IMG/VR virus record: IMGVR_UViG_3300017530_000090
Location: 1-56,818 of that record
Origin: a virus
Reading direction: 5' to 3' (one strand)
DNA length: 56,818 bases
In this document: positions 3,577 to 51,000 of the stretch, one piece after another
Layout of the letters: each line of letters begins with the position of its first letter
How positions within the stretch are numbered: position 1 is the stretch's first letter
Made by a program: the position numbers and the translations under genes
Notes under the pieces: generated by a model
Databases searched by the model: none
What the model was told of the DNA's origin: nothing
The model's input: only the letters and a program-made list of their open reading frames with translations

Positions 3577-3953
3577 CTACTGCTTGCGTGAACGCTGGCA
3601 ATGCTCCTCGTGCTCCTCGAACGAGGCTAGAGCACGGGCGATAGCATGAGGGGCTGTGTAACGTGCGGCACGGCGGGCACGTTCGCGCACACGTCCGCAG
3701 GCACGGCAACCGCGCCTACCATCGGGGCGGATGTACAGGTTGTCCCCGGAGTAGGGATGGGGCCAGCGGGGATGGGGCCATAAACGGCCTCGTAGGCCCA
3801 ACGGTGGGCGTAAATCATTCGGCCATCAAACCAGAACCGCCCGTAGCCATTATGGACGATTGTGGCCGTCCACAACCAGCAGCGGCCAGGCACTCGATCA
3901 GAGAACGGCCCATGCTTGTCGACCTTAGCCAAGAATCGGGTTGCGGCATCCAT
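3577..3953 (-). pseudogene. HNH endonuclease relic, internal deletion plus frameshift
   Basis: The N-terminal half in one frame (RFLAKVD, CWLWTA, GYGRFWFDGRMIYAHRWAYE, YGPIPAG) matches the intact HNH protein at 47591-48028. The catalytic TIDHLCRNRAC segment is missing. The conserved C-terminal zinc region (YSGDNLYIRPDGRRGCRAC) follows in another frame. The junction lies at a short repeated GGCCCCATCCC, suggesting slip-type deletion. It cannot encode an active nuclease. Confidence 0.85.
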
Positions 3954-3958
3954 GCCTC

Positions 3959-3964
3959 ATTATA
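3959..3964 (-). promoter_or_regulatory. -10 box of HNH relic (leaderless layout)
   Basis: A perfect TATAAT on the minus strand ends 5 nt before the ATG at 3953, and a TTGTTA lies 18 bp upstream. Transcription would start at or next to the start codon. Confidence 0.55.
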
Positions 3965-4061
3965 TCGAATCGAATCTAGCTGTAACAAGAGACGCCTACT
4001 GGCGTTCTACGCTATGGAGCAACAGGCAAGGAAGCCGAGACGGAGCAACTGCGGGGTGGCT

Positions 4062-4138: not shown

Positions 4139-4177
4139 GCTACCCGGCCCGAACTAATCAAGAGAGGAGGCCAAGAT

Positions 4178-4821: not shown

Positions 4822-4839
4822 GGCAAAGAGGAATTCCTC

Positions 4840-5233: not shown

Positions 5234-5249
5234 AGGGCCAGCGATTCCT

Positions 5250-5267: not shown

Positions 5268-5287
5268 GGAAAGGGGGGTAGAGAACT

Positions 5288-5967: not shown

Positions 5968-6183
5968 CTAGGCTGCGCGGGCACAATGACGAATACGGCA
6001 CAGATGGTCGATGGTCAATCCAGCGGGGATGGGGCCATAAACGGCCTCGTAGGCCCAACGGTGGGCGTAAATCATTCGGCCATCAAACCAGAACTGGCCA
6101 TAACCATCGCTAATCGAGGCCGTCCAGAGCCAGCAGGTCGACGTCTTCTGAACCTTGGCCCAGAAGCGTTGCTCTGTATTCAT
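5968..6183 (-). pseudogene. HNH endonuclease relic, C-terminally truncated
   Basis: Reads MNTEQRFWAKVQ, CWLWTA, GYGQFWFDGRMIYAHRWAYE, then LTIDHLCRIRHC, and stops at once. It keeps the HNH histidine pair region but lacks the HLE segment and the zinc tail of the intact 47591-48028 protein. About 75 bp (near 6015-6092) is nearly identical to the relic at 3577-3953. The ATG at 6183 is preferred over 6204 because of the -10 box 6 nt upstream. Confidence 0.8.
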
Positions 6184-6189: not shown

Positions 6190-6195
6190 AATATA
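6190..6195 (-). promoter_or_regulatory. -10 box of second HNH relic (leaderless layout)
   Basis: TATATT ends 6 nt (GAGGCC) before ATG 6183. The relic at 3953 has TATAAT-GAGGC-ATG, so the promoter-start arrangement is conserved between the two copies. Confidence 0.5.
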
Positions 6196-6219: not shown

Positions 6220-6300
6220 CCGGCCCCCATCGCTGCCAGCGAGTTAGCACCCGCGCCCGTGGGAGCTAGTCACACCCTCGCTGGCAGCGATGGGGGCCGG
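6220..6300. repeat. 24-bp perfect inverted repeat with inner stem
   Basis: Arms 6220-6243 and 6277-6300 pair perfectly over 24 bp. The 33-nt centre has a further TAGCACCC/GGGAGCTA stem with one mismatch. It lies between the divergent HNH relic and the gene at 6331, as the 4062-4138 hairpin does for its own relic. Confidence 0.9.
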
Positions 6301-11677: not shown

Positions 11678-11911
11678 TCATGGAAGCATCCGATCAGGGA
11701 TTTGCTTCGCCGAAGTTTCCAGACGTTTCATCATTACAACCATTGGCGCACGAGTCGGCACCTCTAGCCGACGGGCCTCACTGTTGCAGGTGGGGCAGCG
11801 AATGCAGGCTGAGTCCCGCTCCGCCATCAGGAGCCGGGCCTCGAACGTCTCGCCATCACGCGAGCACTGACTGCTCAGGCATCTAAAATCGTAGGTCGGA
11901 ATCGCAATCAC
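11678..11911 (-). CDS. FmdB-like zinc-ribbon protein (77 aa)
   Basis: Begins IAIPTYDFRC and carries CLSSQC and CIRCPTC pairs, the layout of FmdB-type zinc ribbons (short proteins starting PxYDYxC). The start is the GTG at 11911, whose last bases make the TGA of the upstream HNH gene (GTGA). Function unknown in phages; a nucleic-acid or protein-binding role is inferred. Confidence 0.7.
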   Translation of the reverse strand: MIAIPTYDFRCLSSQCSRDGETFEARLLMAERDSACIRCPTCNSEARRLEVPTRAPMVVMMKRLETSAKQIPDRMLP

Positions 11912-12330
11912 CCCTTTCGGCCCCAACGGGCGAGTGCGGCCCTTCGGGATTGTTCAGATCGTTGTTCAGGTGTCATTCGGCCAAACCGACCGCCCGCCGC
12001 ATAGAACTCGGCCATCGCCGCCTGACGCCGGACTACTTGTTGTGACGACTGCTTGCGGCCCTTGTGTGTCCGCGACTTTAGCGCGCGGGCTTCGGGTGTA
12101 TTCTGAGCCGCCGACATCCTCGCCCGCGTCACAGCGTTTCGACGGCGACCAAGATGGTGATGACGCTGATGCGCGGTCGTAGTCATCAGCTTCAGGTTCT
12201 CCAGCCGATTATCGGTGATGTCACCGTTCCGATGATGAATCACATGGTCATCCGGGACGGAACGGCCGTTGGCCTCTTCCCATACCAATCGATGCTCTCG
12301 AACACCATTGCGGCTAGGATACGTCGCCAT
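11908..12330 (-). CDS. HNH homing endonuclease (140 aa)
   Basis: The HNH core is EHRLVWEEANGRSVPDDHVIHHRNGDITDNRLENLKLM, with HHRNGD supplying the metal-binding His and N-D-N-R-x-E-N-L completing the motif. The C-terminal part is basic and repetitive, NUMOD/AP2-like (TRARMSAAQNTPEAR). ATG 12330 has a GAGGGTTGTT site and overlaps the upstream gene, so this copy is translated in the operon and lacks its own promoter. Site-specific nicking or cleavage with intron-less homing is inferred. Confidence 0.85.
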   Translation of the reverse strand: MATYPSRNGVREHRLVWEEANGRSVPDDHVIHHRNGDITDNRLENLKLMTTTAHQRHHHLGRRRNAVTRARMSAAQNTPEARALKSRTHKGRKQSSQQVVRRQAAMAEFYAAGGRFGRMTPEQRSEQSRRAALARWGRKG

Positions 12331-12778
12331 AACAACCCTCGGCATGGGCCGCCGTTGGCGCTAGCGCTACGGAACAGCCCGGACACTCCTTGTACTCCGC
12401 CTTCGCACAAGTGCAGATGATCGCCAACTCACGGCAACCCGTGCAGCGGTCGGCCATCATCGGCTCAGCCTCCAGCCCGCATTGCTTACAGGAGCGCGGC
12501 GGAATCTTGATGTCGTTGTCCGGGTGATCATCATTCGGGATAGTCAGGCCGAAATCGATCCACAGGAAAGCGAAGCTGAACTTGAACTCTGGCCCACGGG
12601 CCATGTCTTGCTCACCGGGGACTTCGGCCGTGTGCGGCGGAACGAAGTGGATGAAGAAATCGAAAGCGAAGCCGATGTACGGGTGCCAGGAACCCCAGAC
12701 ATTGACGATTCGAGACGTGCGCCAGTCGAAGGATCGGGTGTCGAACAGCAGGTGCCAGAACCATTTGAGTGCGTTCAT
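12314..12778 (-). CDS. Cysteine-rich hypothetical protein (154 aa)
   Basis: The N half is aromatic and hydrophobic (WFWHLLF, WHPYIGFAFDFFIHFVPPH, FKFSFAFLWIDFGLTIP), possibly membrane-associated or a beta barrel. The C half holds CKQCG, CTGC, CTC and CPGC motifs, enough for two zinc ions. No family recognised. Coupled to the upstream gene by ATGA. Confidence 0.7.
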   Translation of the reverse strand: MNALKWFWHLLFDTRSFDWRTSRIVNVWGSWHPYIGFAFDFFIHFVPPHTAEVPGEQDMARGPEFKFSFAFLWIDFGLTIPNDDHPDNDIKIPPRSCKQCGLEAEPMMADRCTGCRELAIICTCAKAEYKECPGCSVALAPTAAHAEGCYGDVS

Positions 12779-14150: not shown

Positions 14151-14396
14151 CTATCGCAGGGCCAGAGCACCCAGATCACGGCTGCCGCGATCAAACTGAT
14201 TACCGCGACCAGAATCGGATCGGGCATCTCGCTCCTCTCGTTGTTGCTCTTGCTTCTCAAACTTGAGCCTGCGGCTCTTCATCTTGCGGTTTCGCCCCCG
14301 CCGATACTCAGGCGGAAGCTCGCCGATCCACAGGATAGCATCCTCGGACGTGACCTTATCGTCACGGCGCAATCTCACCCGGATAGGCAACCTCAT
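14151..14396 (-). CDS. Hypothetical highly charged protein (81 aa)
   Basis: ATGA-coupled to endonuclease VII (start 14396). A short beta domain (LPIRVRLRRDDKVTSEDAI, LWIGELPPEYR) is followed by a long Arg/Glu/Gln helix (LKFEKQEQQREERDAR). Possibly a DNA-binding accessory. Confidence 0.6.
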   Translation of the reverse strand: MRLPIRVRLRRDDKVTSEDAILWIGELPPEYRRGRNRKMKSRRLKFEKQEQQREERDARSDSGRGNQFDRGSRDLGALALR

Positions 14397-15028
14397 TGCA
14401 CGATCCCCACATACTGCGTAGCTCGTTTGGGCCAATCGAGATCACCAATTAGTTCGTCAAGCCGCACATTGCATCGAGAACAAAGGAGGCCACGAATCCG
14501 GCCCGTCTTATGATCGTGATCTACCACCAAATTAGTAATCTCACCCCGATAACGACGAGTCTCCGGCTGGCCACAGATCGCACAAACACCACCTTGCTTA
14601 CCGAACATTCGATCATAATCATCAAGGCTAAGGCCATATTGTTTGATAAGGTGCCGCCGCCGAGTACTGATACGATTCTCTTTCTGCTGGCGACTGCGCC
14701 TATCGGCACAAGACTGACAAGTCGTTAGACCAGCGCGAGGCGATTTATACCCGCATTGCATACACAGGCCCTTCACACGTTTGTCCTCTCGCCGACGACG
14801 ATATTTGTCGGTACACTGTTCACAATAAGCGCGGTTGCGCGTGGCCGACCCAACCCCACACTGCACACACAGGCCCTTCGTGCGCCTGACCTCCAGCCAA
14901 CGGCGACGCTTGTTAGTACAACGCTCGCAGTGAGTACGGTTAGGTAGGGCCAACTCAACTCCGCAACGGGCACATAGGCCCTCAGCGCGCTTGGTCTCTC
15001 GCCACTCACGGGAACGATTTCTGCTCAT
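14393..15028 (-). CDS. Recombination endonuclease VII with three zinc ribbons (211 aa)
   Basis: Residues 125-205 are a phage endonuclease VII core: GVCAICGQPE, VDHDHKTGRIRGLLC and SRCNVRLDELIGD. These give the four zinc cysteines, the DH catalytic pair and the Asn. Residues 1-115 are three tandem copies of a GLCxxCG...NRxxCExC...RRRREDKR zinc ribbon. This family cuts branched DNA such as Holliday junctions, and also occurs as free-standing homing enzymes. A consensus sigma70 promoter ends 6 nt before the ATG, giving a leaderless message. Confidence 0.85.
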   Translation of the reverse strand: MSRNRSREWRETKRAEGLCARCGVELALPNRTHCERCTNKRRRWLEVRRTKGLCVQCGVGSATRNRAYCEQCTDKYRRRREDKRVKGLCMQCGYKSPRAGLTTCQSCADRRSRQQKENRISTRRRHLIKQYGLSLDDYDRMFGKQGGVCAICGQPETRRYRGEITNLVVDHDHKTGRIRGLLCSRCNVRLDELIGDLDWPKRATQYVGIVQ

Positions 15029-15034: not shown

Positions 15035-15063
15035 ATTCTACCGCATCCTTGGTTTTTTGTCAA
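15035..15063 (-). promoter_or_regulatory. Consensus sigma70 promoter of endonuclease VII gene
   Basis: TTGACA (15058-15063), a 17-bp spacer, and TAGAAT (15035-15040) on the minus strand. Only 6 nt (GATTGC) separate the -10 from ATG 15028, so the transcript would begin at the start codon. The promoter lies in the last codons of rnhB. Confidence 0.75.
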
Positions 15064-15751: not shown

Positions 15752-16150
15752 CTAATTCTCGTCCCTTCGACGATATTCCCGAATGGTGTGGCAGTTAGCA
15801 CACACCAAATCACACCTATCTAACTCAGTCTGTAGTCGGGCCTTACTGATTCTGGTAATGGAGATGGTATTCGGAACGCCGCGCTCTTGAGTATGATCGA
15901 ATTGGGCAACCTCTGGATGCTCAGCGAATCCGTAACCACAATCGACACAGGAGCCTCCCTTATACTCAACGGCCCAAACTTTTTGTCGGCGTCGCCATCT
16001 CCGTCTCGCTTCACGCCGGGATGATCGTTGAATAGGCGTTAGGTTTCGATCCTTCTCCCGTACACATTCGCGGCATTCTCTACTAGACGTTCTCCCGACA
16101 TTGGCGATGATATGGCCCCGCAAACAGCGCCGCTTTCTAGTCGGGGCCAT
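15752..16150 (-). CDS. HNH endonuclease, CxxCG...CANCH type (132 aa)
   Basis: An N-terminal zinc knuckle (CLRGHI...CRECVREKDR) and the core CVDCGYGF, then VAQFDHTQERG (H of the ββα-metal motif) and CDLVCANCHTIREYRR. Homologous in layout to the copies at 19752 and 42571. It overlaps the upstream membrane gene, which supplies translation coupling. Likely a homing endonuclease. Confidence 0.85.
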   Translation of the reverse strand: MAPTRKRRCLRGHIIANVGRTSSRECRECVREKDRNLTPIQRSSRREARRRWRRRQKVWAVEYKGGSCVDCGYGFAEHPEVAQFDHTQERGVPNTISITRISKARLQTELDRCDLVCANCHTIREYRRRDEN

Positions 16151-17498: not shown

Positions 17499-17527
17499 TG
17501 TTTTCTCCTTTCATTATGGCCGCTTCT

Positions 17528-17542
17528 ATGTTATAATAACAT
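17528..17542. promoter_or_regulatory. Palindromic -10 region of the LAGLIDADG gene
   Basis: ATGTTATAATAACAT is symmetric about its central A and includes an extended -10 TGTTATAAT. The hexamer at 17532-17537 ends 5 nt before ATG 17543, again predicting a leaderless transcript. The symmetry could also serve the leftward gene starting at 17498 or a repressor. Confidence 0.6.
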
Positions 17543-18004
17543 ATGATGAACAAATGCGCAATTCCTGATTGTGATAATCCGGCCCGCGCTCGTGGGTGGT
17601 GCAATACACATTACCAACGTTGGAAGAAGCACGGTGATCCACTAAAGACTTCCCGCCGCAGCCCGCGACGACACCCGCGCCCAAGAGCATGTGGCCCGCG
17701 CAAGCCGTCCGAAATTAAGGAGATGACCGACATCGAGGCGGCCCAGGTCGGTCGGATGATTGATACGGATGGTTGGGTTGCTCTCTGCCGCCCCCGTAGT
17801 TGGGTAATCGGATTCTACGCTTCTACGCTCCCGCGACTGACCTACGATCTCCAAGAGCTTACGGGAGGCGGATCGGTGAGCAATCTGCGAAAAGGAAAAC
17901 AATGGTACGTAAGCCGCTTTTTGTCCGTCGTAGATTTGCTTACCCGAATTGCACCTTGGAGCTACAAGGCCCAGGCAGCGCTCAAGAAGATTCATAGCTC
18001 CTAA
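17543..18004 (+). CDS. LAGLIDADG homing endonuclease with zinc head (153 aa)
   Basis: Only intact rightward gene in the long leftward block. N-terminal zinc module CAIPDCDNPARARGWCNTHY-QRWKKHGDP is frequent on phage mobile nucleases. Residues 64-150 hold one LAGLIDADG motif (AAQVGRMIDTDGWVAL) plus the following beta/helix layout (VIGFYASTLPRLTYDLQEL). With one motif it would act as a homodimer. Opposite strand, own promoter and missing leader mark it as an inserted mobile gene. Confidence 0.8.
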   Translation: MMNKCAIPDCDNPARARGWCNTHYQRWKKHGDPLKTSRRSPRRHPRPRACGPRKPSEIKEMTDIEAAQVGRMIDTDGWVALCRPRSWVIGFYASTLPRLTYDLQELTGGGSVSNLRKGKQWYVSRFLSVVDLLTRIAPWSYKAQAALKKIHSS

Positions 18005-19751: not shown

Positions 19752-20129
19752 TTAACGGTTCTCTCCCTTGTCCGCTAATCGCTTACGGGTGCGGATGGCG
19801 TGACAATTGGCGCATACCAAATCGCACAGATCGAGTTCCACTACCATACGATTGCGTTTCATACGAGTGATGGTCTGGCCATGCGGAACGTTATTTCTAC
19901 CATTCCGGTGATCAAACTGGGCACACTCCGGGCGTCCCTCGAAATCGAAGCCACAGTCTTTACAGAACGCGCCCTTATAGGCGATGGCCCAGAGCTTTAC
20001 CTCCCGCTGCCACTTTAGCATCTTGCCGTGAAAGTGAGCCGTACAACCCTTACATCGGCCAGTGGGATAGCGGCCAACAATAAGGGTATCATGTCCTCGT
20101 GGACAATAGCGTTTCTTTGGAGGGGCCAT
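19752..20129 (-). CDS. HNH endonuclease, CxxCG...CANCH type (125 aa)
   Basis: Same family as 15752-16150: zinc head CPRGHDTLIVG...CKGC, core CKDCGFDFEGRPECAQFDHRNG and CDLVCANCHAIRTRKR. A TTGCAA-N17-TACACT promoter ends 8 nt before its ATG, so the message would be leaderless or carry 1-2 nt. Likely mobile. Confidence 0.85.
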   Translation of the reverse strand: MAPPKKRYCPRGHDTLIVGRYPTGRCKGCTAHFHGKMLKWQREVKLWAIAYKGAFCKDCGFDFEGRPECAQFDHRNGRNNVPHGQTITRMKRNRMVVELDLCDLVCANCHAIRTRKRLADKGENR

Positions 20130-20135: not shown

Positions 20136-21314
20136 TTAGTGTAACAGAAATACGACATCGTTGCAAGTTCCCCGAATACAAAAATTACAACTTTGGCAGT
20201 TAGCCTTCCGACCCGTCTCCTCTGGACAAACATAGGCCGGCTGCCCGTCAAATGTCGTGAAGTTCTGTTGGCCTTCACCAAGCCAGAAGTCCAACCCTTG
20301 TTCGGCTCCGGGGCCGCCGCCACTGATGGCGCGCAGATCGTCTTCCAGCCAGGCGCGCCGCCAACCTGGGGGCGGCAACTCGGTCATGCTCTTATCAATC
20401 GACGCGAACAACTGGACGTTAGGCAAGGCCCGCAAGCGCTCCAAACACGCCAGCAATTCTGGAATCCTCCACGAGCGAGAATAAGTGAAGAAGGCCACCT
20501 CCGGGCGGCTCTCGGCCAGCCTAATCCACTCCTCAATATACTCGACCGAGGAGAAGTCGCCGCTGACATGGATGCGGACGATCTTGGCGTTCGGCGGCAG
20601 CGGGTCTTCGTCCCCTGGTAGCCGTTCGCTCCGACTGTTGGCTTCATAGACCCACCAGAGGGCCACGTTCTGGCGAATTCGGAAGGCATAGCAGATTGAC
20701 AAGCAATCGTCAGATGCGGCTGGGCAGGTTCCACCATCCTCATCGGGTAGACCAGGCTTGCGCGAGTAAGCATACACGTCGGGGCCGAGCTTCCGATTGC
20801 CCTTACCCCAGCGAGAGAATGTTACACCGCTCTCGTCCGGTAGATAGACCGTCTCCGCAATCTTCTCAGCCAAGGGCGAATAAGCATCCCCGCCCTCGAT
20901 GCGACGCTTGATGGTCGTCGCCATGAACGGTTCAACATCAACGATGACGCCATGCCGCTCCAACGTGTGGACGGCCTGATGGACTACGCGCGGCATGACG
21001 GCCAGATTCTTAATGGAGTCTCCACCCCGTCCTTTCTCTAAGATATGATGGACAACCTCGCGCTTGGGATCAAAACGCAATCCGAGATAGTCCTCTACGG
21101 CCCGTCGATACGAAACCTGCGTTCGGGCTTCCCGTGGCTCCTTTGGCCCGCCGCGCCGAGATGCGCCAATCCGTTCCTTCGTCGCCTCCGTGAGTGGGTA
21201 GCCAGTTGATCCCTTCGGACGACGGAAGGGACGGCCACCAAACGGCGCAATATCCGGCCGACATTCCTTACACCACGGATGGGCCTTGCCGCAAGACTTT
21301 ACCCTGAAACTCAT
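20136..21314 (-). CDS. HNH-gp88-like fusion protein (392 aa)
   Basis: Residues 65-130 contain an HNH-like segment (YLGLRFDPKREVVHHILEKG, DSIKNLAVMPRVVHQAVH). Residues 150-392 match the phage GP88 family: RKLGPDVYAYSRKPG, TCPAASDDCLSICYA, VRIHVSGDFSSVEYIEEW, FFTYSRSW, ASIDKS, YVCPEETGRKANCQSCNFC, VVFLLH. GP88 has conserved cysteines and an aspartate-centred core but no proven activity. The HNH segment probably came from an endonuclease inserted in frame at the front. Confidence 0.75.
   Translation of the reverse strand: MSFRVKSCGKAHPWCKECRPDIAPFGGRPFRRPKGSTGYPLTEATKERIGASRRGGPKEPREARTQVSYRRAVEDYLGLRFDPKREVVHHILEKGRGGDSIKNLAVMPRVVHQAVHTLERHGVIVDVEPFMATTIKRRIEGGDAYSPLAEKIAETVYLPDESGVTFSRWGKGNRKLGPDVYAYSRKPGLPDEDGGTCPAASDDCLSICYAFRIRQNVALWWVYEANSRSERLPGDEDPLPPNAKIVRIHVSGDFSSVEYIEEWIRLAESRPEVAFFTYSRSWRIPELLACLERLRALPNVQLFASIDKSMTELPPPGWRRAWLEDDLRAISGGGPGAEQGLDFWLGEGQQNFTTFDGQPAYVCPEETGRKANCQSCNFCIRGTCNDVVFLLH
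20138..20166 (-). promoter_or_regulatory. Promoter of HNH gene (near-leaderless)
   Basis: TTGCAA (20161-20166), 17-bp spacer, TACACT (20138-20143), then 8 nt to ATG 20129. Lies at the 3' end of the gp88-like gene. Confidence 0.5.
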
Positions 21315-28420: not shown

Positions 28421-28893
28421 TACTTCTTTCCTCCTGGCGGCATAGGCGCGCGGCCATTACCCCACGCTGCGATGCACGCGGCATCATAAACATCCTGCGG
28501 TTGATCGGCCGGGATATGTAGCACCTTCTGTGCGTAGGCCGCGATCTCTTCCTTCGAAGCGTGGCCGTTGCCGAGCACGCCCTTCTTCCACGTGCCATTA
28601 TCGACCATCGAATGGGACTGGTTGTTGCTCCAGAGCCAGAACCGAATCATACCCACGACCACGGCTTGGTCGCGGAGCGCCTTCGCATTGACGCCCATCA
28701 CGGGTGTCTCGATGTACACCCAATCGACCGGCTGGTCGAAGAAGGTGATTCGGAGAGACGTGTACAGCCCCTCAATACGATCTTCGGCTCTCCGCCCCTT
28801 GGCCTCGACCCGCCAGATATGGGGTTCTTTTCCAGCCTCCAAGACGACGCCGGTAATGGCACGAGTATCAGGATCAATCCCGACGATTCGCAT
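28420..28893 (-). CDS. ruvC: RuvC-like Holliday junction resolvase (157 aa)
   Basis: IVGIDPDTRAITGVV (first catalytic Asp), DWVYIETPVMGVNAKALRD (Glu), GNGHASKEE and DVYDAACIAAWG (final Asp) form the RNase H-fold RuvC set. Resolves four-way junctions in recombination and replication. ATG 28893 with AGAGG. Ends in a TAATG-type overlap with the phosphoesterase. Confidence 0.88.
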   Translation of the reverse strand: MRIVGIDPDTRAITGVVLEAGKEPHIWRVEAKGRRAEDRIEGLYTSLRITFFDQPVDWVYIETPVMGVNAKALRDQAVVVGMIRFWLWSNNQSHSMVDNGTWKKGVLGNGHASKEEIAAYAQKVLHIPADQPQDVYDAACIAAWGNGRAPMPPGGKK

Positions 28894-29230
28894 ATGCAAG
28901 TACCTCTTCGGCCCGACCATCTTTACTAGTCAGATAAGGAATCAATTGTGGTAGCAGTTCAAACAAGCTATTGATTTTGGCCAAATGCCAGCGCCACATC
29001 GGTTTGCGTCCAATCGCACTGCTCGGTTCACCATCATAGATGACCGTTCCGTCGCCTGCAAGACGCAGACACGTTGCAACCGTCTCCACCTCGCTAGAAT
29101 AAACGGCAATGTAGCGAGGCCGACGACCACGGAGACAAATCGAGCCTTCGCCTTCGACCATTGCTCCGAGCCAAGCCGCCTCTGGTGAAGAAAGTTGACG
29201 CACAGTGGACTTCTGACGCGGTGGTGCCAT
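28874..29230 (-). CDS. LAGLIDADG endonuclease (118 aa)
   Basis: EAAWLGAMVEGEGSICL is the LAGLIDADG helix. IAVYSSEVETVATCLRLAGDG and RWHLAKINSLFELLPQLIPYL follow the family pattern. ATG 29230 with GGAGGAGCT. TATACT ends 9 nt upstream, so the leader is 2-3 nt at most. Overlaps ruvC by 20 bp. Confidence 0.8.
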   Translation of the reverse strand: MAPPRQKSTVRQLSSPEAAWLGAMVEGEGSICLRGRRPRYIAVYSSEVETVATCLRLAGDGTVIYDGEPSSAIGRKPMWRWHLAKINSLFELLPQLIPYLTSKDGRAEEVLAYANRRD

Positions 29231-29239: not shown

Positions 29240-29245
29240 AGTATA
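29240..29245 (-). promoter_or_regulatory. -10 box of LAGLIDADG gene
   Basis: TGCTATACT (extended -10) on the minus strand, 9 nt before ATG 29230. Confidence 0.45.
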
Positions 29246-36924: not shown

Positions 36925-36997
36925 CTCTGAATAGAATTGAATTTAATAAGGATTCGTTAGCCCATAAACACGATCAACACGATCAACAGCGATCAAC
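36858..36997. repeat. 24-bp inverted repeat of GATCAAC/GTTGATC motifs
   Basis: Arms 36858-36881 and 36974-36997 are perfect complements and each consists of repeated GTTGATC. One arm is in the N-terminal codons of the 36505-36924 gene and the other overlaps the end of the endonuclease VII gene. The 92-bp middle is A+T-rich (GAATTTAATAAGG) and could hold a leftward promoter. Confidence 0.8.
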
Positions 36998-37297
36998 AGC
37001 CAGATACGCGACGGCGGTATGCAACCACGCTGCGTCCTCGACAATAGCGAGCTTCTGATTGCAACGTCGACACAACAGACCGCGAACCTGTCCCGTGCGG
37101 TGATTGTGATCGACGGACAACGGCTGTACTCGGCCCTGATTGTCCCGTCCACTCTCTGGTTGGCGGCAGATCGCACAGACACCATTTTGCTCGTGACGCA
37201 TCCGATCATAATCGTCGAGGCTAAGCCCATATTGGCGGCGAAGCGCTTTTCGTCGATTGATTCTAGTCGTCCGCAAGGATGTAGCCCCTAGCAACAT
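36983..37297 (-). CDS. Endonuclease VII, short form (104 aa)
   Basis: Core only: QYGLSLDDYDRM, GVCAICRQPES, VDHNHRTGQVRGLLC, RRCNQKLAIVED. All four zinc Cys and DH/N catalytic residues are kept. No zinc-ribbon head, unlike the 14393-15028 copy. No ATG; a TTG at 37297 lies inside the primase end, so the gene was probably inserted at the primase 3' end and is translated by coupling. Confidence 0.8.
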   Translation of the reverse strand: MLLGATSLRTTRINRRKALRRQYGLSLDDYDRMRHEQNGVCAICRQPESGRDNQGRVQPLSVDHNHRTGQVRGLLCRRCNQKLAIVEDAAWLHTAVAYLAVDRC

Positions 37298-40042: not shown

Positions 40043-41793
40043 GCGTTCCTCCCTTTCAAGCGCTGTAGCGCAATCCCACAGTATTCGCGGCTGATGTCGA
40101 TCCCAATGAAGCCGAAGCCCTCCTCCGTGGCCGCAACCAGTGTTGAGCCACTGCCACAGAACGGGTCAAGCACTACGCCATCCGGCGGCGTTACCAGACG
40201 GACGAGCCAGCGCATCAGGGCGATGGGCTTGACCGCTGGATGCGTTGCGGGACTTCCGGCGTTGCCGTTTAACGTCAACCGCATCCCGGATCGAACACGC
40301 CCGACAACGGGAAGAGATACCGACCTTTCGACGATAATACTCAGTTTCGGACTGAAGTCGTCCGCACTTTCGGCACGGCTTCCACCAGATTCCTTCTCGG
40401 AGTTCGCACCCACCGTGTAGTCGCTTGTGAGTGAGCGCGTCAACCAACTCAAGGTTCCCGATTCGGTTGTCGAGTTTGTCTTCATTTCGATGGTGGAGTT
40501 GGTATCCTGGAGGGATGGAGCCACAGTGCCGCTCCCAAACAATAACGTGCTCCATTCGTTGGTGTCCCCCAACCCAAATGCGTCGATAACCTTTGGGGGT
40601 GATGGTGCCGTATCCACCAGGAGCTTTGCTTCGCGGGCCTCGCCTTCCCATGACTCCCATTCTAGCAAAACAAGCTCAAGATCATCAAGCCCTTGTTCGC
40701 GTTCCTTCTTCGTGGCCTTTGGACAATACTTAAACCTTGTTACGGAGGCCGCTGCCCCAGCTTCCGTATCAGAGTATCGCATGGTGGCGAAGAAGCGCGA
40801 CACGCCCGCAACTTGCTCGTCCAGCATCCCGGCCGGGCAATCCGGCTGATGGATGAATCCGCCACCTTCGCGGCGCGGGCCGGGCTTAGCAGCAAGATTC
40901 GTGACCCCCCTTCTGTCGTAGCGGCGCTCCTGCGACCGTTCTCCACGGCGTTTGCGCACCTTCTCCGGCACCGGCTGCGGATCGTCGCACGTGCATTGCA
41001 GCACGACATTAGCTGGCCAGCGACCCTTTTGCTCTGGGCGCTCAAACTCGGAGCGTTGCCCGCCGCCTTGCGCCTTACCAGCCAATCGCCCAGAGCGGGA
41101 CGTGGTGCGGCCCTGTGGCTTCGCCGAAGCCTTGTCCGCCTCGCCCTGGTACTCCAGGCGCGTTGTATCAATGTTGAGCGCTCCCGTGCCAAACTTGAGC
41201 ACATTGGCCGCAACGTTCTGCTCAGCCAAGGGCTTGCGCGCCAACAGGATCGGCTCGACCGAGGGCTTGAGGCCAGTGCCCCATCCCGCCCACTGTTGTG
41301 CGTCCTCCGTCGTCAACTCCACCGACCCGCCGGTGTCACTGATTAGCGTGCCTTCCGCGTCTCCACTAAAACGATGACGGGTGCAATTGCCGAGATCGCG
41401 GTCGGGACGGCGCGCGGCCCCAATCGTCTGTAGCTTTTCCACGGCCTGGCCGACATTGTAGGACTTGGGCATCCCCTGCCCATAGAGCCAGAGCAACGCA
41501 TCGCGCACCTCGAAGCCCGCATCCTCGACGGCGCACCACATCCGGTGATGCGTGCGGGCGCCGCCGAACACGACCATGTGGCCACCAGGCTTCAGGACGC
41601 GCAGACATGCCTCCCAGGTCGCGGCCCGGAACGATACGCCCCGGTCATCCCACGCCTTGCCCATAAATTTTAGCTCGTAAGGCGGATCAGTGATGATGGC
41701 TTCCACCGATTCATCCTCCAGCCGCGCTAGGGCATCCAGGATGTCGCCCTCGATGATGAGGCCGTCCATCTCGTCCAACCAGTGCTGCCTCAT
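40039..41793 (-). CDS. DNA methyltransferase carrying a nested HNH gene (584 aa)
   Basis: IITDPPYELKFMGKAWDD (catalytic DPPY, residues 36-39) near the start and DPFCGSGSTLVAATEEG (SAM motif I) near the end define an N6A/N4C methyltransferase of the DPPY-first order. Residues about 380-515 do not look like methyltransferase; they are the overlapping translation of the HNH gene at 40166-40651 in another frame. The true enzyme would be about 450 residues. Whether the interrupted protein is active is open. Confidence 0.85.
   Translation of the reverse strand: MRQHWLDEMDGLIIEGDILDALARLEDESVEAIITDPPYELKFMGKAWDDRGVSFRAATWEACLRVLKPGGHMVVFGGARTHHRMWCAVEDAGFEVRDALLWLYGQGMPKSYNVGQAVEKLQTIGAARRPDRDLGNCTRHRFSGDAEGTLISDTGGSVELTTEDAQQWAGWGTGLKPSVEPILLARKPLAEQNVAANVLKFGTGALNIDTTRLEYQGEADKASAKPQGRTTSRSGRLAGKAQGGGQRSEFERPEQKGRWPANVVLQCTCDDPQPVPEKVRKRRGERSQERRYDRRGVTNLAAKPGPRREGGGFIHQPDCPAGMLDEQVAGVSRFFATMRYSDTEAGAAASVTRFKYCPKATKKEREQGLDDLELVLLEWESWEGEAREAKLLVDTAPSPPKVIDAFGLGDTNEWSTLLFGSGTVAPSLQDTNSTIEMKTNSTTESGTLSWLTRSLTSDYTVGANSEKESGGSRAESADDFSPKLSIIVERSVSLPVVGRVRSGMRLTLNGNAGSPATHPAVKPIALMRWLVRLVTPPDGVVLDPFCGSGSTLVAATEEGFGFIGIDISREYCGIALQRLKGRNA
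40166..40651 (-). CDS. HNH endonuclease nested in a methyltransferase gene (161 aa)
   Basis: MEHVIVWERHCGSIPPGYQLHHRNEDKLDNRIGNLEL is a typical HNH-3/AP2-type core (HH, N, N-L-E), followed by a zinc knuckle CRKCGRLQSETEYYRRK...CRAC. It lies fully inside the methyltransferase ORF in a different frame. The last 30 residues are methyltransferase sequence read out of frame. Start 40651 is chosen because a TAGAAT ends 7 nt before it; ATG 40660 lies within that promoter. Confidence 0.85.
   Translation of the reverse strand: MGRRGPRSKAPGGYGTITPKGYRRIWVGGHQRMEHVIVWERHCGSIPPGYQLHHRNEDKLDNRIGNLELVDALTHKRLHGGCELREGIWWKPCRKCGRLQSETEYYRRKVGISSRCRACSIRDAVDVKRQRRKSRNASSGQAHRPDALARPSGNAAGWRSA
40659..40664 (-). 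promoter_or_regulatory. -10 box of nested HNH gene (leaderless)
   Basis: TGCTAGAAT (extended -10) ends 7 nt before ATG 40651, with TTGATG 18 bp upstream. The promoter lies in methyltransferase codons just before the insert. Confidence 0.55.
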
Positions 41794-42578
41794 TCGAACA
41801 TTGCCCTCACCCGTGGTTCCGCCACCTCATCGACGAGCTTCTTGTCTAGATCGATGCCAATGGCGTTGCGGCCCAGCTTCAGAGCCGCGAGCATCGTGGT
41901 GCCAGTGCCGACCATTGGGTCGAGCACGGTGTCACCAGGCAGCGCGAATAGATCGATGTACCGTTCCGCCTCCGCTTGCGATTGCGTCCAGCCCTCCGGG
42001 TGCTGGCTCTTGTCCACCGGCTCGCTCGTGGACGTATCGAAGCGCCACCAGCGCGTGAAATGCCCGCGTCGGCAGGAGTGTTGGCAGTTATCGCGGTCGA
42101 GCGTCCAGGCAGGCTGCTCCACGACGATCTCTTGGCCCTCACGGCGACGCTTCTTCCGCTGCATCTTGCCCGTCAACACGCGACAGCCGCCCTCGTCCTT
42201 GAGCTTCTTGCACTCGTCGACGCAAGTGATGTCATACTTTCCCTTGACGAAAATGAGCATAGGCTTCCAGCGACTCTTGACCCGCACCGGGCGCATGAGC
42301 GCGTTGCTGTGAGGTGTGTACAGGCAGTCCACCCAGACGAACTTTAGACCAGCGGAGAGCTTCGCCAGAACAGTAGGTAGGTGATACTGGCCGCTATACG
42401 TCACGAGCAGCCCGCCATCCACCAGCACGCGGGCCGCCAACTCGGCCAGCGGACTCCAGAGATCGAGATATTGTTGGCCATACGGAGGATCGGTAAAGAT
42501 AAGCTCAATACTATCGTCTGGGATGTGCTCCGGCGTGAGCTTGCGGAAATCGCCTCGATAGAAGGTGTAGTCAACCAT
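41790..42578 (-). CDS. DNA methyltransferase, DPPY type (262 aa)
   Basis: FTDPPYGQQYLDLW (motif IV) and LDPMVGTGTTMLAALKLGR (motif I) mark an N6A/N4C enzyme. A Cys/His cluster (CVDECKK...DRDNCQHSCRRGH) lies in the middle. ATG 42578 overlaps the end of the HNH gene, and the 3' end overlaps the next methyltransferase (ATGA). Third methyltransferase of the window. Confidence 0.85.
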   Translation of the reverse strand: MVDYTFYRGDFRKLTPEHIPDDSIELIFTDPPYGQQYLDLWSPLAELAARVLVDGGLLVTYSGQYHLPTVLAKLSAGLKFVWVDCLYTPHSNALMRPVRVKSRWKPMLIFVKGKYDITCVDECKKLKDEGGCRVLTGKMQRKKRRREGQEIVVEQPAWTLDRDNCQHSCRRGHFTRWWRFDTSTSEPVDKSQHPEGWTQSQAEAERYIDLFALPGDTVLDPMVGTGTTMLAALKLGRNAIGIDLDKKLVDEVAEPRVRAMFE

Positions 42579-42990
42579 TGTTATGCCGATTCTTAGTGCG
42601 TGTTTTGTGGCAGTTGGCGCAAACCAAATCGCAATTCTCCAACTCGGCGGCCAACTTCTTCCATCCAAGATCGGTAATCTTACTGTGCGCGGGCAGCACC
42701 GAAGTTCGGCCCCGAATGTGGTCAAATTCAGCGCACTCTGTGCGGCCATCGAACCGCATTGAGCAGTCCGCGCATTGGCCGCCCTTCTGTTCCATAGCCC
42801 ACAGCTTCTTCTGTTGAGCCAGAGCACGGCCGCCGCCCAATCCAGCAGCCCGGCGCTCGCGGTGATAGGATTTATCGCATTCGCGGCACCAATAATGCAG
42901 GCCATCCTTAGAGGAAGTACGACGACCAAAATGCTCGCTCGTTGACGGCTTACTTCGGCCACAGCGCGTACATTCTTTCTTAGCGATCAT
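42571..42990 (-). CDS. HNH endonuclease, CxxCG...CANCH type (139 aa)
   Basis: Zinc head CTRCGRSKPSTSEHFGRR...CRECDKSY, core CADCSMRFDGRTECAEFDHIRG and CDLVCANCHKTRTKNR. Third full member of the family at 15752 and 19752. A TGTTATACT promoter at 43020 leaves a real leader with TTGGAGGTGAGTAGGA, unlike the other endonucleases. Confidence 0.85.
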   Translation of the reverse strand: MIAKKECTRCGRSKPSTSEHFGRRTSSKDGLHYWCRECDKSYHRERRAAGLGGGRALAQQKKLWAMEQKGGQCADCSMRFDGRTECAEFDHIRGRTSVLPAHSKITDLGWKKLAAELENCDLVCANCHKTRTKNRHNNG

Positions 42991-43048: not shown

Positions 43049-43678
43049 TCATTCCTCCCTCATCTTCGGCATCGCCACGCCGCCCTCGTCCTTCCACTCG
43101 CTCACCAGGCGCGGCAGATGGAATTGGAAGAATGGCAACGTGGACGGCTCGTCGGCTCGCCGGTGGCGGAAGAACCAGGTGGCGACCTGCTTCAGCGTCT
43201 CCAGTGAGTACGTGCGCAGCATCTCGTCAATGAGTACCGTATCGCGCCCTCGACCTCGCTCCGGGCGCGGGTACGGCTCCTCGACGTGTCGCTCATGCAG
43301 CCCACACCAGTGATTGATGAACTCCCAGACCAAATGCCACGAGGTTTTCGGGCGTTTCCTAGCAGGCGGAGCGAGAGCGTTGGGATCGACCTCCGGCACA
43401 TCATTCAACGCAATGCTGGGCGGCCGCTCTTCGGTATCCAACCAAAGAAAACCGTGGTTCTCTAACTCTTGGATGACGGCACCGAAGCGAGTTTTGGTGA
43501 TGCCAAGATAATGCACCAAGCGCTCGATGCTCATTTCAGTTGAGGCCAAGCGATTGTCCCGCAGCACCTCATAGACCGACCCAGCTTCGGCGGTAAGAAT
43601 CAGCTTCCAATAGGTATTCCAATGATCGGGTAACTGACTTAACGGTTCGTTGTGGTGCAAGTGAAATACGGCGTCCAT
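43049..43678 (-). CDS. Winged-helix protein, candidate replication factor (209 aa)
   Basis: ATG 43678 with AGCAAGGATTTTG; the longer frame begins inside an operator. Central helix-turn-helix-like part (STEMSIERLVHYLGITKTRF, GAVIQELENHGFLWL) resembles winged-helix DNA-binding domains of phage replication initiators, and the C-terminal region (YSLETLKQVATWFFRHRRAD) is like DnaD/loader-type tails. Beside a helicase and primase, an initiator or loader role is reasonable but unproven. Confidence 0.6.
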   Translation of the reverse strand: MDAVFHLHHNEPLSQLPDHWNTYWKLILTAEAGSVYEVLRDNRLASTEMSIERLVHYLGITKTRFGAVIQELENHGFLWLDTEERPPSIALNDVPEVDPNALAPPARKRPKTSWHLVWEFINHWCGLHERHVEEPYPRPERGRGRDTVLIDEMLRTYSLETLKQVATWFFRHRRADEPSTLPFFQFHLPRLVSEWKDEGGVAMPKMREE

Positions 43679-43696
43679 CAAAATCCTTGCTTTGTG

Positions 43697-43723
43697 TGCA
43701 TACATTGTGGTATAATGTATGCA
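43697..43723. promoter_or_regulatory. Operator-like 10-bp inverted repeat over a divergent promoter
   Basis: TGCATACATT (43697-43706) and AATGTATGCA (43714-43723) are perfect inverted arms around GTGGTAT. The rightward extended -10 TGGTATAAT (hexamer 43711-43716) lies inside and ends 6 nt before ATG 43723. The leftward replication gene starts at 43678 on the other side. A repressor bound here would control both. Confidence 0.65.
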
Positions 43724-45827: not shown

Positions 45828-47591
45828 TTATTGCAATAGGCCATACGCTTGAAGGTCATCGATCACAGCATTAACCAGCCGCTTGAGGTCATCCACCGTC
45901 ACGCGGAGCGCGGCGAATTCGGCGATAGCTTGATCGCGGTTCGCGGCCGTGTCCCAGCCTCCCGCAGCGGTGCCGCCACCACCAGCAGGCATATCAGCGG
46001 AACCATCGGCGGCGTGCGTCTTGTCCGCCGTCGCAAACGTCTGGGTGTAGGCGCTGGCGCGGGCAACGGGTGCCACACCGAAGAATCCGATGCTCGCTCC
46101 ATTATGGTCGAGATCGCCACCAATCAGCACATGACCTTGATCGAGAACGCGGAAGAGAAGCGTGTTCGCCCCGTCCGAATCAATATGCGATTCGATCATC
46201 GAGCGGCCGACGGGGTTCTGCGTGGCTGCAACGTTGAGCACTGGAACGGAAGCGTTCGTAAGCGCACCATCGATTAGAACACGAGCGGTGATACCAAGTT
46301 GCAAGCTAGCGGCTCGAAATAGCGAAACATCCGGGCCGAGGAGAATCCCGCCTGCCGCCCCTGCTGTGTTGATTCGCAATTGCCCTGCCGGACTAAGGCT
46401 CATCTTCTCTGACGCCGTGATGCTGCCAACCGAGGTAGTGAAGAAAACCAACTCCCCAGGAGTATCGCCCACCGCAGGAACGCCCTCTACCTTAGCGCTG
46501 AGCTTGGCCACAACGCTACTGTTGAATACTCCGTCATCGACAGACCACGCGAGGGAGCCCGCGTCGTCGCCATCCTGCACAATTGTCTGTGAACCGATAG
46601 CAGGGTCACGACTCTTCAAGAAAACCATCTGCGGCCCTGCTGCATCATTCGACCATCGGCCGAACCCCATTCGCGTGTCCGCAGCCCCAGTACCAAGGAA
46701 GGACAGAGAAACGTCGCCTCCGAAACTTACGCCTACATCGTTGCCAATCACCAAGCGACGCAGATCGGGAAGAACCACGTTGGCGTTGATGTACATCTCA
46801 CCTGGGTTGGAACGGTAGAAGGGAACATCGCCACCCATACGGATTCCCGCAAATGACCCCTGACCAGGAAGTTGTAAACTGCCCTCAGCGGTCATCATGT
46901 TCACAATAGCCGCATCCGAAGTGGAGAACCGAAGGTCGTTTTGATAGGCGTCGATGCCCCAGTGTTCGAAGGTGGCGTCGTGATCTGCCGCAAGGTGCAG
47001 CCGCATCGCGCCGCCCAAGTCCGAACCGGCACCATCACCGTATAGAATGATCGTGCCTGGCGCCGTATCGTCCGTACCGACGAGGAGTGGGTTGCCCAGG
47101 ACGACGCCACCGCCGAATCCGCCTTGCACGAGATAGGAACGCCGGTCGTTGACCGAGGTGATGTCCCCGGCTGCCGTCACAACCGTCGCCAGCGGTACAC
47201 TATCGGACGGGAAGCTCGTGGTGTTGGATGCCACCGCGCCCGCATTGTTCACGAACACGTAATTGGTCGTGGCGTCCGTCATCAGCAACGTACCCGCGAC
47301 GATGCTGAAGAAGCTGCCGCCAATCCAAATCTGGCCCTGTTCATAGCTGATGACGAGGCTGACACCTTCAGCCGCCGTCACACGGAACGATCGCGTGTGC
47401 TTAGAGCCATACAGCACATGATCGGCCACCGCCATCGGCGGGATTTCGCCTGCGCCCGGATCATCACCTGGAATCAGCACGATCTCACGGCCGTCCGTGA
47501 TCCGAGTCGTGATCGCCTTCAGGCGCTCAATCTCGGCCAGAGCCAGCTTTAGCTCATTCTCCGGTCGTGCAGTACGGTATCGTCGTACCAT
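45828..47591 (-). CDS. Fibre-like virion protein (587 aa)
   Basis: Short helical N terminus (ENELKLALAEIERLKAI), then long glycine- and alanine-rich beta-repeat region (SFFSIVAGTLLMTDATTNYV, GGFGGGVVLGNPLLVGTDD) and a C-terminal coiled-coil (IAEFAALRVTVDDLKRLVNA). This is the layout of head or tail fibres. Probably a receptor-binding or decorative fibre. It is next to the HNH insertion and the large tail protein. Confidence 0.75.
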   Translation of the reverse strand: MVRRYRTARPENELKLALAEIERLKAITTRITDGREIVLIPGDDPGAGEIPPMAVADHVLYGSKHTRSFRVTAAEGVSLVISYEQGQIWIGGSFFSIVAGTLLMTDATTNYVFVNNAGAVASNTTSFPSDSVPLATVVTAAGDITSVNDRRSYLVQGGFGGGVVLGNPLLVGTDDTAPGTIILYGDGAGSDLGGAMRLHLAADHDATFEHWGIDAYQNDLRFSTSDAAIVNMMTAEGSLQLPGQGSFAGIRMGGDVPFYRSNPGEMYINANVVLPDLRRLVIGNDVGVSFGGDVSLSFLGTGAADTRMGFGRWSNDAAGPQMVFLKSRDPAIGSQTIVQDGDDAGSLAWSVDDGVFNSSVVAKLSAKVEGVPAVGDTPGELVFFTTSVGSITASEKMSLSPAGQLRINTAGAAGGILLGPDVSLFRAASLQLGITARVLIDGALTNASVPVLNVAATQNPVGRSMIESHIDSDGANTLLFRVLDQGHVLIGGDLDHNGASIGFFGVAPVARASAYTQTFATADKTHAADGSADMPAGGGGTAAGGWDTAANRDQAIAEFAALRVTVDDLKRLVNAVIDDLQAYGLLQ

Positions 47592-48028
47592 TATGGGCCT
47601 ACCTTCAATGAGATCAGTGATTCCTTCCGGCGTCGTGTGTTATGGCACGTTCGGCAACGACGGCTGCCGTTCCGTTCGACAATCAGATTGCCATTAGAGT
47701 AGGAGTGCCCGGCCGGGCATTCCGTCTTGCGTGCGTACCGGGCCGCCAGGCCGTTGCCGCGAAGGGTATTAACCCGGCCCGTAACTGCTTCCATATGATC
47801 CGTATTCTGACAGGCCCGGTTGCGACAGAGATGATCGATGGTGAGGCCATCAGGGATGGGGCCGACCAGCAACTCATAGACCAGTCGGTGAGCATATTGC
47901 ACTCGGCGTGGGCTGCTAAGCCGAAATACACCATATCCATCAGCATTCAGGGCAGCCACCCACAACCAGCAGCCGTTGGGCTGCGGAGCAATCTTAGCCA
48001 GGAGTCGCATAGCGGTTTGATCGTCCAT
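47591..48028 (-). CDS. HNH homing endonuclease, intact (145 aa)
   Basis: Complete version of the decayed copies at 3.6, 6.0, 9.6 and 10.6 kb: CWLWVAALNADGYGVF, AHRLVYELLVGPIP, TIDHLCRNRACQNTDHMEAV (HNH, D-H...N..H), and zinc tail CPAGHSYSNGNL...RCRTCHN. TAGCAT ends 6 nt before the ATG, with TTGCAG 16 bp upstream, inside the end of the tail gene. Inserted between two structural genes. Confidence 0.9.
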   Translation of the reverse strand: MDDQTAMRLLAKIAPQPNGCWLWVAALNADGYGVFRLSSPRRVQYAHRLVYELLVGPIPDGLTIDHLCRNRACQNTDHMEAVTGRVNTLRGNGLAARYARKTECPAGHSYSNGNLIVERNGSRRCRTCHNTRRRKESLISLKVGP

Positions 48029-48032
48029 CTTA

Positions 48033-51000
48033 CTATGCTACTACCTCAAGTCCTTCCTGCAAGATGAAGCGCGGATCGGATGGGATCGAATCGTTCGACC
48101 ACACACCCAGCACCGTCGGGTTCTTCATCCGCAGCACGTTGTTGGCCGTGTCGGCACGGCCGATGTACAGCGCTGATTCGCCATTATCGTAAGTGACAGC
48201 CATGATGGACGCGCGGTCATCGCCGGTGAAGGGTGCCCAAGTGTCACCGTTGTCCGTCGATACCACCACGCGACCGTCCGTGGCGTCAGCGGCCCCGCCG
48301 CCGTTGCCCGCCATGTACAGGTTGCCGCCACCAGCACGCACCGAGTCCACCCAGCCGTTAGTGACGGCCGTCGTGACGACCGTGTATTTCTGCGTCCAGT
48401 TGGCTCCAGCATCCTCACTCGTAAAGATGAACTTGGCCAGACCGTTACTCTGCGACAGGCCAATGATCCATCGGCTCGCGCCACCCGCCTCCAGATTGAT
48501 GAAGTTACCAATTGCTGCCGTGCCGTCGCGGAAGCTCATGCTGCCAGAGCGGAACGTCCAGGTCGTGCCACCATCCGGCGAGTAGGCCGAGCGCATCGTA
48601 TCGGTTTCGAGACCACCGACGGCCATGATTCGGTTGGCGTTGTTCGGATCAACGCGAATCTGCGTGTACTTCGTCATAACGGCTCCAGCACCGGCCATCG
48701 TGTCCGTGCCCTGGAGCACCCACGTGATGCCATTGTCAATGCTGCGATAAATGGAACGGGGCTGGAAGCTCGCTGGTGCGCCACGGTCGTCGGCGGTGGC
48801 CCACAGGTATCCGTTGCGCCCGCGCGCCAGCGAACCAGCATTCGACAGCACCATCGCCCAGGTGAGTCCTCGATCAGTGCTGCGCTCCAGCAGGCCGCCA
48901 TAACCGCTCGCGGCGCTACCCAGGTCGCCAATCTTGAGCCGGAACATCGTATCACCCATACCGTCGAAGTGCCAGATCGGGAAGCGGTTTTCGGCGGCAA
49001 TCGTGTCCGGCATGTCCAGATAGTTGCGCCAGCCGTCACTGATGGCCTCGCGCAACCAGATGTCCGTATCGCCGCCCGCCACCGCTAGTTGGGCGATAGC
49101 CCATAGCTCCGTCGGCGCACCAGTCGCGGCGGCACGGCGCAGGATCGCCATGCCCTGCGTCGAGACTAAGCAGTCGAGCGTGTAGCCCATCGCAGCCTCT
49201 AGCCCATCATCGATGCCCAGATACCAGGTCGCACCTGGTTCTGGCGGTTGAGCATACGGGAATCGGTCAACAGCCGGAGTCGCACGGCGGCCGACGATTA
49301 GCATATCCGTTAGCGAGTCCCACACACCCGCCCCCACCGCTGAGTGCGATGCAATCGTTTCCCAAGTCTGGCCATTATTGAGTGAGCGCAACTGTGGGTA
49401 GCTATTTACCGCATCGATCTGAGTCCCTAGCACGTACAGGATATTGCCCGCTCGGAAGCGCTCGGCGAAGCCGTAGGTCGCAACGCTGGTCGTCACGTCG
49501 TACCGCAACGTCCACGCAGCCGGAACGCCATTCTGGTCATTCGTGTAGATGCGCAGGCGATTCACACCCGATGGCTGGAGACCCATGATCCATCGCTCGG
49601 CGTCCCCTGCCATGATGAATGGCGTGCAGTAGCGCGGCGCAATACCTTCGAACGTGAGACCAGAAGCGGCGCGTGTCCAATTGGAGGCTAGGCCATCCGT
49701 TGCGTCATTCGAGAACAACGTGGTGATGTTCGTCGCCGGGTAGTGTCCGACAGCCATCACGCGGTTCGAATCATTCGGGTCGACCGCGATGTCCTTGTAC
49801 ATCGCGTGCGTGCCGCCCGTCGTGTCCGTATCCTCGAACACCTTCTCCCAGGTGAGACCCTCATCGGTGCTGCGGAAGATTTCGTGCGCGAAGAAGGCAC
49901 CAGCGGCATGGCCGCCAGCGTGAGACTCACCCGTGGCCCAGAGCGTGCCGTCGGGTGCGTGGGCCATGGCGTAGGTGTACAACATTGGCGCAACGCCCAA
50001 GCTCACCCAAGTCGTGCCCTGATCGGGCGTGCGATACAGCACCTCGGAGTGATCCATCGTTACCGCCGTATATCGAACGTGGAAGAGTACCTGGTCACTG
50101 ATCTGTGGGAAATGCCACAGACGATGCGGCCGGTTGATACGGGCGGTCGGCACCGGGCCGTGATCCTCCCAGCCACCGCTTTGCGTGCGGACGGCCAGGG
50201 CATTCTCCGACGTGGGGTCAGCCGCAGCCGACATGACGATGGCTGCCAGGTTGAACTGTCGCGGACGACGATATTCAATCGCAATGTCCCAGCCGATGGC
50301 ACCGGCGGGCCAAGTCGTGTTGATTGGTGCACCTACCGGCCGGAAGAAGGCCCAGGTCGCGCCATAGTCGATGCTCTTGGCGATACCCTCATCCGTGGCC
50401 GCGAGGTAGATGTCCTTCCAGGCCGCAACGTTCACCAGATCGTGCGGGCGGTTGGCGACGGTGCCTGGTAGCACGTCCACAATCGGCCACCAGCTTCGGC
50501 CGTCGTTTGCCACGTAGAACGTCCTGTTATCAAGCAGTGCACCGAATTGCTCAACCTGGTTATTATTCCCTGCAACGGCCACGCCATCCACGCCCGGCGC
50601 GACGAACGCGCCGCCGCCGACCAGCCAATTAGCCGCGCCGACAGGGAAGAAATCCGTGCTGTAGATGTAGGGATTGGTCGGGACGCCTGCGCCAGTGCGC
50701 TCGAAGATGAGGCCCAGGTCTCCCGACGTGCCGTGAGAGACAACGAAATCGACGACCGTCTCGTTGGCGTTGCGCACGGCGGCACCAACACCATCGCCCT
50801 GCGAAATCTCCGACCACCAGATCGCGCCGCCATCCGGCAGATGGTTGGTAGCGAACCAGGACTCGACAACATCGCCCGTGCCGCCGAAAATCCAGATGCG
50901 GTTGACACTCGGATCAGAGACCTCGATAGCGTTGATCGGTCGAGGGTCAGTCGGGCCCGTATTGACGTGTCCGGCTCCATGTCGTGGCCAGTTGGCGCTA

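Follow-up and report, generated by a model that had tools for sequence, protein, structure and literature searches.

The window analysed here is a 56.8-kb virus record (IMGVR_UViG_3300017530_000090, positions 1 to 56,818; 59.6% G+C) that carries homing endonuclease genes of HNH, endonuclease VII, and LAGLIDADG-like appearance, each named below by the position of its start codon. The initial annotation had listed nine of them with a promoter -10 hexamer shortly upstream of the ATG. When the sequence was re-read, all nine hexamers and spacings proved exact: a hexamer of the form TANNNT, the form scored throughout, ends 5–9 nucleotides (nt) before each ATG (Table 1, where d counts the bases that separate the -10 hexamer from the ATG). 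No close relative of the window was found by DNA in phage records or by DNA polymerase in viral contigs.

Table 1. Endonuclease genes of the window, their promoter-like elements, and endonuclease genes lacking the arrangement
Feature	Position	Strand	Match or remark
HNH_3 remnant, 3' half replaced after residue ~64	3627..3953	-	HNH_3 E=3e-4, profile positions 2-18 only
-10 TATAAT, d5 to ATG 3953	3959..3964	-	
HNH_3 remnant, 71 amino acids	5968..6183	-	HNH_3 E=2e-11
-10 TATATT, d6 to ATG 6183	6190..6195	-	
Counter-example: HNH_3 gene without -10, overlaps upstream gene 12314-12778	11908..12345	-	HNH_3 E=1e-16
Endonuclease VII-type gene, three zinc-ribbon repeats and Endonuclease_7 domain, no Shine–Dalgarno sequence	14393..15028	-	Pfam PF02945 E=3e-17
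Promoter TTGACA-N17-TAGAAT, d6 to ATG 15028	15035..15063	-	Near-perfect promoter
Counter-example: HNH gene without -10 near ATG, overlaps upstream gene	15752..16150	-	phrog_3106 E=3e-21
Extended -10 TGT-TATAAT, d5 to ATG 17543	17532..17537	+	Centred in perfect 17-bp palindrome
Endonuclease gene, N-terminal zinc region of HNH endonucleases	17543..18004	+	phrog_5351 E=2e-8, phrog_1271 E=9e-8
HNH endonuclease gene	19752..20129	-	phrog_2255 E=4e-17
Extended -10 TGT-TACACT, d8 to ATG 20129	20138..20143	-	
LAGLIDADG-like endonuclease gene	28877..29230	-	phrog_5046 'HNH endonuclease' E=6.5e-7
Extended -10 TGC-TATACT, d9 to ATG 29230	29240..29245	-	
Counter-example: endonuclease VII gene without -10, overlaps upstream gene 37263-39590	36983..37297	-	PF02945 E=3e-19
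HNH_3 gene nested in +1 frame of methyltransferase open reading frame 40039-41793	40166..40651	-	HNH_3 E=5e-14
TTGATG-N18-TAGAAT, TGc before -10, d7 to ATG 40651	40659..40688	-	Entirely within methyltransferase codons
Counter-example: HNH gene with leader and GGAGG, -10 TATACT 29 nt upstream	42571..42990	-	phrog_2255 E=2e-22
Extended -10 TGG-TATAAT, d6 to ATG 43723	43711..43716	+	Inside palindrome
HNH_3 endonuclease gene	47591..48028	-	HNH_3 E=4e-13
-10 TAGCAT, d6 to ATG 48028	48035..48040	-	Overlaps stop codon of upstream gene

The spacing is exactly 6 nt at four of the nine sites, and five of them (17543, 20129, 29230, 40651, and 43723) carry an extended -10, with TGn before the hexamer. A Shine–Dalgarno (SD) sequence of at least four bases is absent from eight. 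The claim that these genes are free of ribosome-binding sites does not hold for 29230, which has GGAGG and is not free of such a site if its transcript starts upstream. Three of the -10s share bases with the stop codon of the gene ahead. The TAG in the -10 of 15028, which is the first start codon of its endonuclease VII frame, is the stop codon of an RNase HII gene (15038-15748; RNase_HII match). The -10 of 20129 is formed by the last codons and stop (TTA CAC TAA) of the upstream gene 20136-21314, and the TAGCAT of 48028 ends on the T of the TAG stop of gene 48033-53360 (1775 amino acids), with the ATG 4 nt past that stop. At 40651, both hexamers are methyltransferase codons. Pfam or PHROG endonuclease matches were obtained for 12 of the 13 endonuclease genes of the window; the 43723 open reading frame (ORF), a mere 38-amino-acid HNH remnant, was judged by eye. 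The LAGLIDADG labels of 17543 and 29230 survive only as a likeness seen by eye (a LAGLIDADG-like stretch in 17543), as no LAGLIDADG Pfam match was obtained for either gene and both match PHROG HNH endonucleases.

We then asked how often such a geometry is met in the window as a whole. TANNNT lies 5–9 nt before 64 of the 1740 window ATGs of any kind (3.7%), which gives the chance level, and 4–10 nt before 3 of the 58 called non-endonuclease genes. A promoter-blind search with profiles from HNH_3, HNH, nested-HNH, and endonuclease VII genes of other phages returned ten endonuclease ORFs, six of which have the arrangement (p=1.4e-4 versus other genes); it precedes 6 of the 15 candidate ATGs in these ORFs (p=9e-6 versus any ATG). 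With 17543 and 29230, admitted on their PHROG matches, and the 43723 remnant, the count becomes 9 of 13. Thus, within the window the geometry is above chance and specific to endonuclease genes (6/10 versus 3/58), as had been proposed. Table 1 lists four endonuclease genes as counter-examples. One of them, 42990, had been cited together with 13771 and 16349 as an ordinary operon with a leader and GGAGG; that description holds for 13771 and 16349, but 42990 is itself an HNH gene. A promoter and terminator scan of 13.5–31 kb gave no more hits than shuffled sequences, the 15028 promoter with its N17 spacer being among the hits.

We compared the -10-to-ATG spacing of endonuclease genes and other genes across phages, handling candidate ATGs identically in both classes. 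The endonucleases were of the HNH and endonuclease VII classes, GIY-YIG genes being too few; queries for endonuclease VII and LAGLIDADG found no relatives by pattern scan. The first set held 252 distinct endonuclease ORFs from the window, ~170 viral loci, and other places in those records, with 1334 other genes from the same loci as controls. TANNNT stood at exactly 6 nt before 24/242 endonuclease genes outside the window versus 22/1334 controls (p=3e-9). With the test fixed in advance, fresh loci gave 5/96 versus 8/848 at 6 nt (p=0.0065) and 9/96 versus 22/848 at 5–7 nt (p=0.0024). The combined set, from ~240 loci of other viral contigs, comprised 338 HNH or endonuclease VII genes and 2182 neighbour genes; the hexamer was found at exactly 6 nt before 29 of the former and 30 of the latter (odds ratio 6.7, p=2e-11). 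Permutation of the labels within loci gave 8.6 expected against 25 observed at 6 nt (p<=2e-4). Endonuclease genes of unrelated phages therefore show both an excess of the spacing and a maximum at exactly 6 nt, an outcome in favour of the initial annotation, which had suggested this check. However, the arrangement is enriched in endonucleases and not exclusive to them as first supposed: controls too peak at 6 nt, if only twofold (30 observed versus a mean of 15 per distance), and only ~9% of endonuclease genes elsewhere have it. The smaller peak of the controls is to be expected from the leaderless genes known in bacteria. Leaderless-like endonucleases clustered only weakly in particular phages (7 pairs versus 3.7, p=0.10). 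Two other sources of the 6-nt peak were considered and rejected. In-frame stops (TAA or TAG at -12) do not create it, because TA[CT]NNT peaks alike (14 versus a mean of 1.75); AT-rich regions upstream of endonucleases raise the background 1.5-fold and leave the peak unexplained (ratio 5.8 versus 2.0).

The hexamers at 6 nt also have a promoter-like context. TGn precedes 38% of the endonuclease hexamers at this spacing versus 6% at other spacings. When the sites are piled up, the pattern seen most often is TT.GA followed by a 17-nt spacer; -35 enrichment at a threshold of 4/6 alone is not significant (p=0.2). Only 1 of 29 starts with a 6-nt hexamer in other phages has an SD of at least four bases. 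With TANNNT exactly 6 nt before the ATG, transcription would start on the A. This might simply reflect a phage or host that uses leaderless expression everywhere, endonucleases being merely the genes with their own promoters. The 6-nt peak of the controls fits such an explanation, and both actinobacteria and Deinococcus-Thermus are rich in leaderless genes (PMC3160421, PMC12340547). However, the endonuclease excess persists against controls that are first in their transcription unit (24/242 versus 15/722 at 6 nt, p=9e-7). Moreover, 28 of 49 promoter-like sites within ~30 nt of endonuclease starts fall at 5–8 nt versus 17 of 87 for controls (p=1e-5), whose sites are scattered over 0–30 nt, and the ordinary window genes with a -10 (13771 and 16349) have leaders. 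General leaderless expression is thus an unlikely explanation.

The genes might instead be translated by coupling to the gene upstream (termination-reinitiation) or from read-through operon transcripts, with the -10s due to chance or AT-rich edges. The distance from stop codon to ATG is 4–9 nt at 15028, 20129, and 48028; HNH genes in eight annotated actinophage regions are mostly operonic with short overlaps; and of the six free-standing T4 endonucleases in which no translation start can be recognised, five overlap the gene upstream (PMC2988022). We nevertheless consider this explanation quite unlikely: the endonuclease hexamers peak sharply at a spacing of exactly 6 nt and are enriched for TGn, and the excess stands out when labels are permuted within loci. 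The explanation is also inapplicable at 17543, 43723, 3953, and 6183, and behind transfer RNA (tRNA) genes. In the tRNA arrays of large phages, HNH genes with a leaderless-type promoter lie 13–39 nt behind a tRNA (contig and position L153:6037, L157:2408, and L134:5911), and the arrangement occurs in 5/14 endonuclease genes behind tRNAs versus 40/313 elsewhere (p=0.03). The tRNA-rich phage contig L134 also carries, at 1509-1582, a tRNA with anticodon TTA, which reads the stop codon UAA.

The HNH gene at 40651 lies inside another gene. It occupies the +1 frame of an N6/N4 methyltransferase, between 'KATKKEREQGLDD' and 'HPAVKP', and 11 other contigs (L085-L095) hold HNH genes of 49–66% identity at the same methyltransferase codon position. 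In all 12 loci the methyltransferase frame is open across the ~137 inserted codons and resumes at H[PS][AT]VKP 136–139 codons later; when synonymous codons are permuted, the frame would stay open by chance with a probability of 1–83%, depending on the locus. The uninserted junction aligns in one piece, over at least 80% of the query, in 291 phage records. The locus looks like a frame-preserving, dual-coding insertion. The TTGA of its -35 derives from the conserved 'GLD' motif of the methyltransferase.

How these promoters arose bears on the initial annotation's view that the endonuclease genes are mobile cassettes, each carrying its own leaderless promoter. In its favour, the nested HNH genes of the window, L089, L093, and L095 all have TTGA-N18-TANAAT-N7-ATG, and the HNH remnants 3953 and 6183 both retain a -10 at 5–6 nt with a similar discriminator. 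Homologs of at least 65% identity share the leaderless state in 8/18 directed pairs, and some promoters may travel with the gene among very recent copies. Against it, homologs of 45–65% identity have the state in common no more often than unrelated ones (.14–.17 versus a base rate of.18), and a neighbouring gene often supplies the codons or stop that contain the -10 or -35, as at the four window sites described above and in L024, L041, and L069. In L069, the ATG of an HNH gene starts 4 nt after the stop of a portal gene (identified by eye), too close for a promoter to fit within the insert; L393, a 47%-identical relative of that phage without the HNH gene, has the portal gene followed by other genes. 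A close empty relative of the window itself was not found in the collections searched. The promoter-complete cassette is therefore improbable. Because the -10s use neighbouring codons and stops, the 45–65% homologs share the state at the base rate, and the arrangement is in excess behind tRNAs, we infer that the promoters evolved or were recruited at the landing site rather than being carried as a fixed cassette.

The two remnants also share 120 nt at 88% identity (3763-3882 and 6020-6136, minus strand), including ~70 identical nt with an abrupt end, which points to recent copying or gene conversion followed by truncation of 3953. Just upstream of 6183, at 6220-6300, lies a perfect inverted repeat of 24 bp, its two arms separated by 33 nt.

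Perfect palindromes cover the -10s of both plus-strand endonuclease ORFs, at 17527-17543 (TATGTTAT-A-ATAACATA) and 43697-43723 (TGCATACATT-N7-AATGTATGCA), and the latter is common to the 43723 remnant and the divergent gene 43049-43705. The palindromes are possible operators or autorepression sites. The -10s at 17543 and 43723 could accordingly belong to a regulated operator/promoter, for divergent-gene control or autorepression, and not serve constitutive self-expression. A precedent is I-TevI, which represses its own promoter via an operator resembling its homing site (PMC2988022). However, palindromes are found at only these two -10s, which leaves the other seven sites unexplained, and the small size of the 43723 ORF also speaks against such a role. 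We regard this explanation as conceivable for the two sites, though doubtful.

Taken together, these results suggest that most endonuclease genes of the window probably use their own leaderless sigma-70-type promoters, built at the landing site, and that the same arrangement recurs at low frequency elsewhere. From such a minimal promoter, transcription would begin at the AUG or no more than a few nt from it, and a tolerant host would translate the resulting leaderless mRNAs. The promoters would often be recruited from the stop and last codons of the gene ahead. The same solution would have been reached in 5–10% of the HNH and endonuclease VII genes of many phages, and would be clearest where no upstream frame or ribosome is at hand, as in tRNA arrays, divergent gaps, and the frames of other genes. 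Several points weigh against the proposal of leaderless promoters built in place. The gene caller used for the controls is biased to SD starts, though every candidate ATG was counted in both classes. At 15028, 20129, and 48028 (three of the nine) translational coupling may be sufficient and the -10 perhaps unused, and the promoter of 48028 is weak (TAGCAT, no TGn, and a -35 of at most 3/6). At 29230, GGAGG lies between the -10 and the ATG, 4 nt before the latter. The sharing of the leaderless state by the most similar homologs fits carriage with the gene, and host tolerance of leaderless mRNA is an assumption.

A selfish gene at an arbitrary site needs to be expressed without harming the host operon, a practical question for homing endonucleases. 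A solution of ~12 nt, the -10 and six bases before the ATG, may suffice, as the stop codon of a neighbour (TAG or TAA) can supply the TA. Such a promoter would explain how these genes stay expressed when they lie among tRNA genes, run counter to an operon, or sit within another gene, and it could give gene finders a start-site signal in a gene class that often has no SD. More tentatively, we suggest that homing endonucleases may have convergently adopted zero-leader promoters as their usual means of expression at arbitrary landing sites, even inside the codons of other genes as at the methyltransferase/HNH locus, and may as a class be exceptionally enriched for leaderless promoters among phage genes.

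Leaderless bacterial genes have the first T of TANNNT ~12 nt upstream (Zheng 2011, PMC3160421), and in Deinococcus the -10 is adjacent to ORFs at 6–7 bp (PMC12340547); such genes are also known in M. tuberculosis (PMC3898074). The phage endonuclease sites share with these systems the hexamer form, the 6-nt spacing, and the lack of an SD. However, bacterial leaderless genes belong to many classes, with no pathway bias reported in D. radiodurans, whereas here the arrangement is focused on mobile endonucleases, and it is also found in phages of moderate GC content. Some free-standing T4 endonucleases (seg/mob) have their own promoters, of which four lie within the 3' part of the directly preceding gene, and half have no recognisable translation start region (PMC2988022). 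They resemble the window genes in both respects. T4 differs in that seven endonucleases are called promoter-less, the promoters are middle or late, and the term 'leaderless' is absent from the review (PMC2988022). Leaderless phage mRNAs are known in lambda (cited in PMC3160421) and predicted for Corndog PL1/PR2 (PMC4351075) and Adephagia gene 90 (PMC11373665). In these cases transcription starts on the first base of the start codon, as proposed here, but none is described as an endonuclease gene. HNH genes are also inserted next to structural genes of actinophages: in Corndog they follow a stop codon by 1–3 bp or adjoin the tape-measure gene, like insertions in the window, and the portion of that report drawn on here describes no promoter for the HNH (PMC4351075). 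The present pattern joins T4-type endonuclease promoters with the leaderless TANNNT class, a connection for which we found no precedent in open-access papers.

Two further repeats lie in the window. Beside the endonuclease VII gene at 37297, an inverted 40-nt repeat (85%) at 36852-37003 consists of repeated TGTTGATCG/CGATCAACA units. Within positions 1-160, ~54 nt of the left end are repeated directly ~96 nt later.

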